Source: an uncultured Methanobrevibacter sp. (GTDB taxonomy: Archaea > Methanobacteriota > Methanobacteria > Methanobacteriales > Methanobacteriaceae). From it: DNA of 32,401 bases. The stretch's first letter is position 1, and each line of letters starts with the position of its first letter. This document shows, in pieces, positions 12,515-21,125 of the stretch. The position numbers and the translations under genes were made by a program. The notes beneath the pieces are model-generated. The model did not search any database and was not told the origin of the DNA. It saw only the letters and a list, made by a program, of their open reading frames with translations. The stretch covers positions 1 through 32,401 of the forward strand of contig NZ_CAJOKH010000036.1 of assembly GCF_905235195.1 (NCBI RefSeq). The letters run 5' to 3'.

Positions 12515-13876
12515 TTATTCTAAATATTTATTTACAAGAGAAATTCCCCATTCGGTCATTTCTTTTGATTTTTCAATATTATCAGTTTCAGCAAAACATC
12601 TGAAAATTGGTTCTGTTCCACTAGGTCTAATAATCACCCAGCCATCATCTTTAAGGATTTTAACACCATCAGTTGTATCAAGTGTATAATCTGTTGTGTT
12701 TTTAATCTCTTCAGCTATTTTTGTCATGACATTTTCTTTCTGGTCATCTGGACAATGGGTTTTCATTTTAACTGTATGGTAAACTGGAAGTTCTCCTACA
12801 AGTTGGGATAATGGTTTTTTCTCCTTTGCCATAATCTCTAAAATTTTACAAACAGTCATTGCAGCGTCTCTTCCATAAACAAAATCCGGAAAGATTAATC
12901 CACCATTTTCTTCTCCACCAAAAAGACCATTGGTTTCTTTAAGTTTTCTTGCAACAAGAAGATCTCCTACTGCAGTTGCAATAACTTCTCCATTATATTC
13001 TTCTGCAATATCATAGATTGCAGTTGATGTTGCAACTGTGGTTACAATAGTTCCTCCATTATTTTCTTTAAGCATTGCCTTCTCAACAAGTGTAAATGTT
13101 TTATCTCCTAAGACAAAATTCCCTAATTCATCAATACATATTGTTCGGTCCGCATCTCCATCATGTGCAAGTCCAATATCTGCATTTAATTCTTTTACAG
13201 TACTTATTAAATCTTGAAGATTTTCTTCAATTGGTTCTGGGTCACGTCCTGGGAAGTGTCCATCAGCTTGACAATTAATAGTTGTAACATCACAGCCAAG
13301 TTTTCTAAGTAAATATGGCGCAGTATAGGATCCTGCACCGGAACCTGTATCTACAACTACTTTTAATTTTGCATCTTTAATTGCTTCTATATCTACGCCC
13401 TTAATTGCCTCTGTAATATATTCGTTGATAATAGTGTTATTTGTGTAAAATTTACCTATTTCATTCCAACTAGCTCTTTTAGGTTCTCCATCAAAGAATA
13501 TATCTTCAATTTTTATTTCCATATCATCCCTTGTACCTATTCCATCTTCATCTACAAATTTGAGACCATTATATTCTGGAGGGTTGTGGGATGCAGTTAC
13601 TATAATTCCACCATCATAATAGTTTCTAACTGCATATTGTATTGCAGGTGTTGGAAGTATTCCTAAATCTACTACGTCACATCCTGAAGATAATAATCCT
13701 GCAGCAATTCCATTTTTAAGCATAGGTGTTGTTGTTCTTGTATCTCCACCAATAGCAACAGTTCCTTGTACTAATGTACCATAACTTGCTGCAAGTCTAG
13801 ATGCAAATTCAGGAGTCATTTCTTCATTTGCTATTCTACGAATACCGAAAGTTCCAAATAATCTTTTTTTAGACAT
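12515..13876 (-). CDS. glmM: phosphoglucosamine mutase-type phosphohexomutase (intact, copy 2)
   Basis: Alpha-D-phosphohexomutase of 453 residues, full length. It has TASHNP with catalytic Ser96, the Mg-binding DGDADR at 239-244, the sugar-binding GEENGG at 321-326 and the phosphate-binding RPSGTEP at 417-423. The N-terminal motif is LFGTFGIRRIANEE, a variant of the usual FGTxGxRG seen also in archaeal GlmM-like proteins. Probable reaction is GlcN-6-P to GlcN-1-P, although phosphomannomutase or phosphoglucomutase activity cannot be ruled out. AGGAGAT lies before the ATG. It is the paralogue of the frameshifted gene at 4197-5542 and could cover for it, though their substrates may differ. Confidence 0.88.
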   Translation of the reverse strand: MSKKRLFGTFGIRRIANEEMTPEFASRLAASYGTLVQGTVAIGGDTRTTTPMLKNGIAAGLLSSGCDVVDLGILPTPAIQYAVRNYYDGGIIVTASHNPPEYNGLKFVDEDGIGTRDDMEIKIEDIFFDGEPKRASWNEIGKFYTNNTIINEYITEAIKGVDIEAIKDAKLKVVVDTGSGAGSYTAPYLLRKLGCDVTTINCQADGHFPGRDPEPIEENLQDLISTVKELNADIGLAHDGDADRTICIDELGNFVLGDKTFTLVEKAMLKENNGGTIVTTVATSTAIYDIAEEYNGEVIATAVGDLLVARKLKETNGLFGGEENGGLIFPDFVYGRDAAMTVCKILEIMAKEKKPLSQLVGELPVYHTVKMKTHCPDDQKENVMTKIAEEIKNTTDYTLDTTDGVKILKDDGWVIIRPSGTEPIFRCFAETDNIEKSKEMTEWGISLVNKYLE

Positions 13877-14068: not shown

Positions 14069-14237
14069 TAATATTTGGCTTTGTAGAAATCCTCCTATTT
14101 ATTATATTTTAGTTAAACAATAAAAAATAAAATTAATTAAAATTAAGATCCATTTCAAACATTAAGGTCATAAAAAAAATTGATTTTTATAAAAATTTTT
14201 GCAAAAATCAATATGATTTCTACAAAGTCTAATATTT
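14069..14237. mobile_element. MITE-like element, 153 bp, with 15-bp terminal inverted repeats and 8-bp target duplication
   Basis: The left end at 14077 reads GGCTTTGTAGAAATC and the right end at 14215-14229 reads GATTTCTACAAAGTC; these are inverted copies matching at 14 of 15 positions. Directly outside, TAATATTT occurs on both sides (14069-14076 and 14230-14237), a classic target-site duplication. Inside is a further stem (TTGATTTTT against AAAAATCAA, about 14180-14211). There is no transposase, so it would need one in trans. The M. smithii element ISM1 is reported to make 8-bp duplications, which fits, but I cannot verify that the ends match. Confidence 0.85.
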
Positions 14238-14399: not shown

Positions 14400-14422
14400 T
14401 AGTTAATTTATTAGTTTTATAT

Positions 14423-14600
14423 TCTTAATAATGCAGAATTTTTTTAAAAAAAGAGTTTTGTCAGTTAAATTCTGCACGTATTAAGAAATTTAAAGTAGAG
14501 AATGTCTTTAATAAAGGTTTAAAATTTAAAGACATGTTTCAAAATTTTTTTGTAGGTGAGGGGTTGAGTTAAGGGAAATTTTGAACCTCTACTTTTTTTA
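14423..14600 (+). ncRNA. candidate structured non-coding RNA (hairpin plus three-way junction, U-tail)
   Basis: Read by eye, this stretch folds almost completely. The first hairpin pairs 14423-14430 with 14479-14486 and 14432-14441 with 14467-14476. After 5 nt, P1 pairs AAAGTAGAG (14492-14500) with CTCTACTTT (14587-14595). Enclosed by P1 are P2, ATGTCTTTA (14502-14510) with TAAAGACAT (14527-14535), and P3, 14536-14547 with 14576-14586 (11 pairs, one bulge). The three stems abut with a single unpaired base, forming a three-way junction. P3 ends in a 28-nt G-rich loop containing GUAGGUGAGGGGUUGAG. A T7 run at 14593-14599 marks plus-strand termination. All genes around it are on the minus strand. 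No known RNA family recognised. Confidence 0.6.
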
Positions 14601-14637
14601 TAAATCAAACTATGTTTAATTTATAATCGTAATTTAG

Positions 14638-15033
14638 TTAAATAATTTCTAATCCATTTATATCATCAATGGTTAGTTCTAATTCATTATTATATTGAGT
14701 TACAGTTCCTGTAACCTTTACTTTTCTATTTTTAAATTGATTAATGTTAATATTATGATCTTCAAAATCTTTAAGGCCAGACTCAAATACTATTATATTT
14801 ATTTTTCCACTTCCATCATATAGTGTTAAAAAACATGTATCAGTATTTTTTGAAAATTTAATTTCACTTATTACTCCATTTACAGAAATTTTTTCATTAA
14901 TATTATTGCTAGTAATTTCTCCAATTTCTAGTTCTTTAGTTTCTATATAACTAGAGCTTATTATCAGTCCAATAACTCCAATAATTGTTGTAATAAGTGC
15001 AATTTTATATATTTCCTTATCACCTAGTATCAT
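14638..15033 (-). CDS. membrane-anchored OB-fold nucleic-acid-binding-type protein
   Basis: 131 residues. A membrane helix at about 10-29 (ALITTIIGVIGLIISSSYI) is followed by an OB-fold of the tRNA-anticodon/single-strand-binding type. The pattern VNGVISEIKFSKNTDTCFLTLYDG then SGKINIIVFE and VKVTGTVTQYNNELELTI is typical of these beta-barrels. Binding of nucleic acid is suggested by the family, but many short membrane-tethered OB proteins have no known role. Two in-frame ATGs lie at 15039 and 15033; I prefer 15033 because AAGGT then falls at the usual distance, while it abuts the first ATG. A strong promoter lies just upstream. Confidence 0.7.
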   Translation of the reverse strand: MILGDKEIYKIALITTIIGVIGLIISSSYIETKELEIGEITSNNINEKISVNGVISEIKFSKNTDTCFLTLYDGSGKINIIVFESGLKDFEDHNININQFKNRKVKVTGTVTQYNNELELTIDDINGLEII

Positions 15034-15079
15034 AATCATACCTTATGATTTTGAATTCTATTTAATACTTGTAGGTGAG

Positions 15080-15097
15080 TGTATATAAACCTTTTTT
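15080..15097 (-). promoter_or_regulatory. strong archaeal promoter for the OB-fold gene
   Basis: On the minus strand AAAAAAGG precedes TTTATATAC (box A at 15082-15089), close to the textbook BRE-TATA combination. The expected start near 15059 leaves a leader of about 25 nt. Confidence 0.65.
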
Positions 15098-15280
15098 AAT
15101 TTAAACTAAATTAAGCATTTATTTTAAAAAATAAGATTGTATTTTAAATAATTTTTATTTTTAAAATAATTCTAAATTCTAAAATATTTTTTAATTTTAT
15201 TTTGCATCGAAGAAAAAATAGTTGATGAGATTTATTTGATTTTGAAAAATAAAAAAATCAATATATATTTGAAAATTAAT

Positions 15281-15308
15281 AAAAAAAAGATTAATATAAT
15301 AATCTTTT
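15281..15308 (-). terminator. hairpin and T-run terminator after DNA ligase
   Basis: On the minus strand, starting 35 nt after the ligase stop, AAAAGATTA pairs with TAATCTTTT across a 6-nt loop and runs straight into T8. This is the clearest hairpin-type terminator in the window. The rest of the 15034-15342 spacer holds only the OB-gene promoter and AT-rich filler. Confidence 0.7.
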
Positions 15309-15342
15309 ATATAAAATCTAGAAAAATATTATAAAAAAATTA

Positions 15343-18315: not shown

Positions 18316-18653
18316 TTAATCCCTCTTTAAAAATGATTTAAAGTTCTTTAATTCATTAATTTCTAAATTTTAATCTTTAATATTTAGTATTAGTTTTTCA
18401 TTGGTATTTAAAAAAATTTAATTGGAATTACAATTAGAATTTAATTAAATTTCAATAAGAATTTCAATAAAATTTATTTATTTATTAGTTTATATTTTTT
18501 AAGAATTTTTTCTTTAAAATTAGTTTTTTATTAAATTCTTTTAATGCTTTTATTAATTTATTTAATTATTATTTAATAATTTCATTTTGTTAAATTATTA
18601 TTTATTAAATTATTTTAAATAGGATAAAAAGAGTTTATTATTTTTTTGGAATA

Positions 18654-18757
18654 TATAATATTATAATATTTATTTTTTCTGTACTAATTTAATTTTTTCT
18701 TAGTTTATTAAGGAGGATTAATTTTTTTTTATTTAAAATAAATATTATAATATTATA
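18654..18757. repeat. perfect 23-bp inverted repeat with 57-bp centre
   Basis: Positions 18654-18676 (TATAATATTATAATATT followed by TATTTT) are exactly complementary in reverse to 18735-18757. No matching target duplication was found outside the arms. It may be a bidirectional terminator region between thiC's control region and cdc48's 3' end, or the remnant of a small element. Confidence 0.8.
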
Positions 18758-18766
18758 ATGTATTTT

Positions 18767-18870
18767 GGCTGTTTATTCATATTAAACAGTCAATTGTAAA
18801 TTTAATTATGAATTTTATTTTTAATTTGTAATGGATAGTGATAGGGATTTAAATCCCTATTTTCTCCATT
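18767..18870. repeat. two further hairpins downstream of cdc48
   Basis: GGCTGTTTA (18767-18775) faces TAAACAGTC (18783-18791) across 7 nt, with one non-Watson-Crick position. ATAGGGATTTAAATCCCTAT (18841-18860) is a perfect 20-bp palindrome, flanked by AATGGA (18830-18835) and TCCATT (18865-18870), so the stem extends outward. On the minus strand these would lie in the 3' untranslated region of cdc48. Confidence 0.7.
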
Positions 18871-18908
18871 TATTTTTATTTCTTTTGGAGGTTAAAAATA
18901 TTTAATAT

Positions 18909-21125
18909 CTAGAGATATTGAACCATTTCATCTTGGCTTTGTTTAAATGCATTAGGTTTAACTTTCTCCATAGCTTCATTAAATGCACTCATATCAACTT
19001 TTTCTGCATCCATACTTTCTCTTAAAGTTAACATTGCAGCTTCACGACATACTGCTTCAATGTCTGCTCCGACATATCCTTCAGTACGTTTAGCTAATTT
19101 TGAAAGTTTTACATTATCTGCAAGAGGCATTTCATTTGTATGTACCTCAAAGATTTTAAGCCTACTTTCTTCATCTGGAGTCTCAACTTTAATGTGTCTG
19201 TCGAATCTTCCAGGTCTCATTAAACCAGGATCTATAATATCTGGTCTGTTTGTTGCTGCAATAATTGCAACATCATGTAAATCTTCCATTCCATCAATTT
19301 CAGTAAGTAATTGATTGACTACTCTTTGAGTAACATTAGAACTTCCGCTATCGCCACGTGTATTTGCTATAGAATCTATTTCATCGAAGAAGATTACAGT
19401 AGGCGCAGTTTGCCTTGCTTTTCTAAATACTTCTCTTACTCCTTTTTCTGATTCTCCAACCCATTTTGATAAAAGTTCAGGACCTTTAATTGCAATAAAG
19501 TTTGCATCACTTTCACTTGCAACTGCTTTTGCAAGTAAAGTTTTACCGGTTCCTGGATCACCATATAATAAAATTCCTCGTGGAGGTTCTACATGGAATT
19601 TTTTAAACTTATCTGGGTATTTTAACGGCCATTCTATTGCTTCTTGTAATTCTTGTTTTGCAGTTTCAAGTCCACCAATGTCAGACCATTTAATATCAGG
19701 TATTTGTACAAGAACTTCTCTTAAAGCTGAAGGTTGGATTTCTTTCAATGCTTCTTTAAAGTCAGCGTTATTAACAATAATCTTTTTAAGAGTTTCTTCT
19801 GGAATTTCTTCATCAGATTTATTAATCTCAGGTATGATTCTTCTAACTACTCTCATTGCAGCTTCTTTACATAATGACTCTAAATCTGCACCTACAAATC
19901 CATGGGTGCTTTCAGCAATTTTATCAAGCTCTACGTCCTTACTTAAAGGCATAGTTCTTGTGTGAATTTCCATAATTTCTCTTCTCTCTTCCCTATCTGG
20001 AACACCTATTTCGATTTCTCTATCAAATCTTCCAGGTCTTCTAAGTGCTTGATCTAATGAATCTGGTCTATTGGTTGCTCCAATAACAACAACCTGTCCT
20101 CTAGAATTAAGACCATCCATTAATGTTAGAAGTTGTGCAACGGTCCTTCTTTCTACTTCACCTTGGGTTTCTTCCCTTTTTGGTGCAATAGCATCAAGTT
20201 CGTCTATAAATATAATAGATGGTGCATTTGCTTCTGCTTCTTCAAAGAATTCCCTAAGGTTTTCTTCAGATCCTCCTACATATTTACTCATAATTTCAGG
20301 CCCATTTATTGAAATAAAATGAGCATCACTTTCACTTGCAACTGCTTTTGCAAGTAAAGTTTTACCAGTTCCAGGAGGCCCATGCATTAAGACTCCTTTT
20401 GGTGGTGCAATACCTAATCTTTCAAAAAGTTCTGGCCTTTTAAGAGGTATTTCAATCATTTCTCTAACTTTTCTTACTTCTTCTTTAAGACCACCAATAT
20501 CTTCATAACTTACATTAACAAGATTAGTTACACCTTCAAGTTTAGATATATCTACAGGATGATCTTGAAGGTCAATTTGTGTATTAGGACCTACTTTTAC
20601 AACTCCTGTTGGATGGGTGGATACAACAGCGAATTTTAACTCACCCATCGGGGAAATATCCATAAAATTATTAAACATATCATCAAATGGATTTCCACCT
20701 TGATTTTGCATCATTGGAGGTTTAATACCAGAACCTACAATGTCTCCTTTAGTCATTACTTTGTTTAAGAATAATCCTCTAATATCTCCTTGGATTTTCA
20801 CATTATTTTCAGTTGGTGCAAGAACTACTTTTTTAGCAATTTTTACACTTGCTTTTTTTACTTCTATTTCTTCACCAATTGATGCACCTGAATTTTTACG
20901 AATAGTACCATCCATTCTTATAATTCCAAGACCTATATCAGATTGTGATGAAACAACAGTTGCAGCAGTGGTTTTAGATCCTTTTATTTCAATTAAATCT
21001 CCTTCTTCAAGACCTAATTCTCCCATTGCATTTGGGTCAATTCTTACAATTCCTTGACCAATATCACGTTGAGATAATGCTTCTGCAACTTTCAATGTTG
21101 GGGTTTTGATATTATCATCAACCAT
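18909..21125 (-). CDS. cdc48: Cdc48/VAT-type AAA ATPase (p97 family)
   Basis: Hexameric unfoldase that feeds proteins to the proteasome, 738 residues. The N-domain (1-about 200) has the double-psi barrel motif [12 protein letters not shown] and an extra Gly/Phe-rich insert around 135-160. D1: Walker A GPPGTGKT at 249-256, Walker [10 protein letters not shown] (Asp308, Glu309), arginine finger region RRPGRFDR. D2: Walker A reads GDPGTGKT at 522-529 where most members have GPPGTGKT, Walker [10 protein letters not shown] (Asp581, Glu582), MRPGRFDR. The protein ends in VQYL. The start is placed at ATG 21125, because AGGAGATGAT would overlap the in-frame ATG 9 nt upstream. It has a long leader with a candidate heat-shock operator. 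Confidence 0.95.

Follow-up and report, generated by a model that had tools for sequence, protein, structure and literature searches.

A conserved folded element beside an OB-fold gene of Methanobrevibacter, a candidate minus-strand small RNA of restricted distribution

Methanobrevibacter are the main methane producers of the rumen and the human gut. In an uncultured member of the genus, a tightly folded element is located between glmM (12515-13876, minus strand) and the gene of an OB-fold protein, beyond which lie lig and thiC. We propose that this is a structured small RNA gene of the minus strand that is confined to its lineage and whose C-rich loop would pair in trans with stretches resembling ribosome-binding sites (RBS), and we give this putative assignment somewhat better than even chances. 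Positions are those of the window, the whole 32,401-nucleotide stretch of DNA analysed, which belongs to a genome of 1.89 Mb in 107 contigs; SSU rRNA is absent from the assembly. The element had initially been annotated as unassigned and probably RNA, in agreement with our search of Rfam, in which no family matches it at the gathering threshold or permissively (E ≤ 5). It is a previously uncatalogued candidate outside Rfam, most likely a minus-strand small RNA, and in the literature searched no small RNA is described for the genus Methanobrevibacter. The kind of RNA is already known and the element is of interest to methanogen specialists; being compact, young and single-copy, with its start, stop and fold predicted and its loop invariant, the candidate is directly checkable in strand-specific metatranscriptomes of rumen or gut.

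Table 1. Features of the element and its upstream neighbour (window positions; G002, genome carrying the homologue)
Feature	Position	Strand	Remarks
First hairpin P4, long imperfect	14423-14486	minus	8 + 10-11 bp; outer end 14421 is the limit of homology with G002
Three-way junction	14487-14595	minus	P1 9 bp, P2 10 bp, P3 10 bp; joining bases 1, 2, 1 unpaired
P1 5′ strand and start of P2 5′ strand	14583-14595	minus	P1 part AAAGUAGAG at 14587-14595
P3 hairpin	14502-14535	minus	loop of 14 nt, 3 nt in G002; stem retained
P1 3′ strand CUCUACUUU	14492-14500	minus	CTCTACTTTAAAT at 14488-14500
C-rich loop CCCUUAACUCAACCCCUCACCUACAA	14550-14575	minus	unpaired on minus; 26/26 identical in G002; contains UCACCU
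U7 tract in P4 loop, candidate archaeal terminator	14446-14452	minus	U8 in G002; RNA would be ~150 nt
11-13 bp dyad ATAAATTAAAC-ATA-GTTTGATTTAT	14598-14626	minus	promoter box to first stem; MFE structure
BRE/TATA-like promoter box ACGATTATAAATTA	14617-14630	minus	identical in both species; predicted start ~14596
OB-fold gene, upstream neighbour on minus	14638-15039	minus	133-aa membrane-anchored protein; PF01336, E 3.4e-10

As had been claimed from its appearance, the folded unit is real, and chance in AT-rich DNA does not account for it: on either strand none of 200 dinucleotide-preserving shuffles folds as well, with z-scores of -4.40 for the plus and -7.80 for the minus strand, the latter reaching -8.38 with the 5′ flank. 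Of 718 windows of 180 nt scanned over both strands, five had z below -5, and two of these overlap the element on the minus strand, which puts it among the top two intergenic places of the window for strength of folding. The other place, at 18631-18990 between thiC and a CDC48-type gene, folds with z-scores of -6.6 (plus) and -6.1 (minus), contains a long AT-rich inverted repeat together with a GGGATTTAAATCCC hairpin, and has no match in Rfam. The three-way junction and the hairpin preceding it lie about where the initial annotation had placed them. Its stems of 9, 9 and 11 bp meeting with one unpaired base survive as three near-contiguous stems, although their computed lengths and joining bases differ slightly (9, 10 and 10 bp; 1, 2 and 1 bases). 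The loop at the end of P2 has 28 nt and was described earlier as exposed, G-rich and RBS-like; it is indeed present and invariant, but on the likelier minus strand it is C-rich and resembles an anti-RBS. Its unpaired probability is 0.94-0.99 on the minus strand against about 45% on the plus strand. Upstream of P1, the dyad ATAAATTAAAC-ATA-GTTTGATTTAT may form a 5′ hairpin with one U-G pair or act as an operator-like palindrome. Both species have the palindrome, and its place after the predicted TATA box and before the start is operator-like. No conserved small ORF was found, the minus-strand 24-codon ATG frame in P3-P4 being without an ATG counterpart in G002.

A clear homologue was found in one of 40 related genomes, G002 (E 2.3e-41, 80% identity), which represents a sister species and is also the only one of the three congeneric species examined to carry it. 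Element and OB-fold gene have been inherited together: the G002 copy is placed directly downstream of the orthologous gene and on its strand, and the block keeps its relative orientation in G002, yet it is inverted relative to lig. On its own, the G002 sequence adopts the same hairpin and three-way junction (minus strand, z -6.7), with matched insertions in both arms of P2. The loop core is identical at all 26 positions, while the third codon positions of the OB-fold gene are only 70% identical. When the observed changes were placed at random with the loop held fixed, the redistributed sequences folded at -19.5 ± 3.6 kcal/mol, against -45.7 kcal/mol for the homologue (0/500). For the junction alone, simulated from a parsimonious hand alignment, the corresponding values were -6.9 ± 2.8 and -20.6, with 0/600 on the minus and 2/600 on the plus strand. 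Since random redistribution almost never keeps the fold, the structure is under selection. Base-by-base support from covariation is modest, because it comes from two sequences. In the structural alignment, which was fitted to the model, 96.8% of the cells are paired, decreasing to 42-53% when partners are slid by 1-3 columns; with two sequences the shuffle control (124/500) is uninformative. The compensatory changes that the initial annotation had suggested looking for exist as two double compensatory pairs, in P2 and P3, and one U-A to U-G change is also seen.

The element is single-copy in both genomes. Neither the loop (up to 3 mismatches, 139 family genomes) nor its 19-nt core (up to 2 mismatches, 151 order genomes) was found outside them, and a covariance model built from the window gave convincing matches within the family only in these two. 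The remaining matches of the model (G119, G020, G085 and others) have many broken or missing pairs and in none is the loop sequence kept; the best of them, in G119, falls inside a coding sequence. No match to the element was obtained in plasmids and phages, and none to the exact 19-mer in viral contigs. Hence, the homologues anticipated in other Methanobacteriales did not appear, only two species carrying the element. The OB-fold gene is present in 126 of 139 family genomes and is followed by glmM in most of 30 inspected loci, typically with a short spacer; most of these relatives have no comparable structure, and two other species of the genus have a different hairpin after the gene. The OB-glmM spacer contains short tandem repeats of the GTGTAGAGTTGAGGGG type in L046 and repeats of about 57 nt in L029; such repeats in other family members indicate that the spacer varies quickly. 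Alignment of L023 3780-4616 with window 14421-15330 places the inverted OB-fold gene and element beside lig in G002. The inversion junction and the outer end of the P4 hairpin are no more than about 8 bp apart, and the gene beyond the junction in G002 is a SIS-domain gene, not glmM.

The initial annotation regarded the plus strand as the transcribed one, a choice against which the conserved promoter-like box, flank and U-tract speak, all of them on the minus strand. A BRE/TATA matrix of 14 positions (consensus AGCTTTATATATGA) was derived from 28 regions upstream of tRNAs, taken from the two genomes; with it, the minus-strand box ACGATTATAAATTA scores 7.57, a value attained by 0.07% of window positions. 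The box lies about 27 nt before P1 in both species and ends 21 nt ahead of it, so that the expected start coincides with P1, and the minus-strand 5′ flank is identical at 34 of 39 positions. The U7/U8 tract is also kept; in archaea, a run of some four to seven U residues serves as terminator and no hairpin is required (PMC8716108). Because box, flank and U-tract are conserved, the loop is better exposed and the z-scores are stronger, the minus strand is probably the transcribed one, about five times likelier than the plus. This strand agrees with the surrounding block of minus-strand genes, so that the element, once singled out as the sole plus-strand unit there, is no longer an exception. A plus-strand small RNA is quite unlikely; its G-rich loop GUAGGUGAGGGG, resembling an RBS, would mimic or block such a site or pair with the anti-SD. 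This reading would be consistent with a plus-strand fold that exceeds shuffles (z -4.8, -3.7) and is kept under simulation (2/600), and close to the OB promoter the loop would find an 11-nt pairing partner, CTCACCTACAA (15069-15079). G-U pairs point both ways: those at the end of P4 and in the 5′ dyad favour the minus strand, and one pair beside the loop, a C-G to U-G change, fits the plus strand better and counts against the minus reading. However, the 11-nt site is missing from the OB promoter of G002, the loop would be only about 45% unpaired, and no promoter is conserved: homology does not extend past the structure but ends at P4, beyond which the plus-strand upstream region is unalignable. 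The TATA-like boxes noted earlier on that strand do exist in the window, with similar scores, but the best (14412-14425) overlaps the P4 hairpin and none is kept in G002, where the best near the expected place scores 3.2. Likewise, the T7 run that was thought to end the unit is present at 14593-14599, but it overlaps P1 and is reduced to T4 in G002.

The main rival is a purely cis function, in which the element would be part of the 3′-UTR of the OB-fold mRNA and stabilize or terminate the transcript with neither a trans function nor a separate promoter; we consider it possible, although rather unlikely. In both genomes the element lies just 3′ of the OB-fold gene and shares its strand; this position, the joint passage of gene and element through the inversion, the conserved U-tract and the different hairpin at the same place in two congeners all suit this reading, and the element shares with archaeal 3′-UTR hairpins and terminators its location 3′ of a gene and its U-tract. 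However, hairpins are not required for termination (PMC8716108), and the junction and the invariant loop exceed what termination needs. A cis role leaves unexplained both a 26-nt unpaired loop without a single change and an identical promoter-like box at the correct distance in the two species, and such a structure is missing in most inspected OB relatives, with their short spacers before glmM. An element acting as DNA, whose cruciform-prone dyads would be a terminator, a protein-binding site or an inversion breakpoint, is very unlikely. The dyad overlaps the promoter box, and structure and homology end at the same point, which is where the inversion meets lig in G002; nonetheless, the stems of the junction persist despite changes in loop length, through insertions and substitutions that compensate, a pattern typical of RNA, and dyads do not account for the single conserved 26-nt loop sequence. 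Least credible is a mobile-element relic (MITE or IS end), for which only a genuine MITE-like repeat 190 nt away in the same spacer could be adduced. It is already contradicted by the single copy in both genomes, the lack of terminal repeats or target duplication around the element, and the failure to match any plasmid or phage.

In the small RNA model that we prefer, transcription would start near 14596 from the element's own BRE/TATA box, just after the OB-fold gene, although read-through from that gene could also supply the RNA as a 3′ UTR. The transcript would pass through the P1-P3 junction and end at the U7 tract (~150 nt) or beyond P4 (~175 nt). Kept open by the junction, the C-rich loop CCCCUCACCU would pair with G-rich, RBS-like stretches of target mRNAs. 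Its UCACCU is complementary to AGGUGA, a form of RBS seen in the window, e.g. in CTAGGTGATTAA-ATG before the gene at 2936. In Methanosarcina mazei, an anti-RBS loop of sRNA154 has been proposed to mask the ribosome-binding site and block translation (PMC5867862). With sRNA154, and with sRNA41, the candidate would share the character of a methanogen intergenic RNA with a stable fold, exposed loops and an anti-RBS-like loop (PMC5867862). The two differ in that they belong to different orders with no sequence relation shown, and in that the element has a three-way junction and a single C-rich loop; sRNA154 would nevertheless be its closest described analogue. The archaeal families of Rfam (RNase P, SRP, C/D and H/ACA guide RNAs, riboswitches) are likewise structured archaeal RNAs, yet none matches the element even at E ≤ 5; the RNase P RNA is found elsewhere in the window genome. 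Given the exposed invariant loop with its UCACCU and the sRNA154 analogue, a candidate trans-acting anti-RBS small RNA appears to be the most economical reading. Counting against it, the U-tract lies inside P4 although the 3′ arm of P4 is also conserved, and the element is represented by two sequences and was not found in the two remaining congeners or elsewhere in the family and order. A search for targets of long complementarity (18-mer, up to 3 mismatches) gave few matches, none convincing; they were not common to both genomes, and neither of the two inspected lies at a start codon. A more elaborate version, in which a newly arisen, genus-restricted small RNA titrates or blocks with its 26-nt C-rich loop the AGGUGA-type RBSs of many mRNAs and is controlled by a palindromic operator between TATA box and start, is speculative and should be considered unlikely.

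The 11-mer CTCACCTACAA has only four copies in the genome, two of them inside coding genes. The other two, on the same strand and 519 bp apart, are in the loop of the element (14550-14560) and at 15069-15079, just after the TATA box of the OB-fold gene. Autoregulation by the OB protein through this sequence was not retained as an explanation: G002 lacks the promoter copy, and the OB domain probably faces outside, as a basic N-terminus before the single hydrophobic helix suggests. A MITE-like dispersed repeat is located at 14077-14229, with terminal inverted repeats GGCTTTGTAGAAATC / GATTTCTACAAAGTC and a flanking perfect 8-bp duplication, TAATATTT (14069-14076 and 14230-14237). It is weak or absent in G001 and G003, has about seven strong copies in the window genome and about a dozen in G002 (75-82% identity), and accounts for part of the long spacer between glmM and the OB-fold gene.
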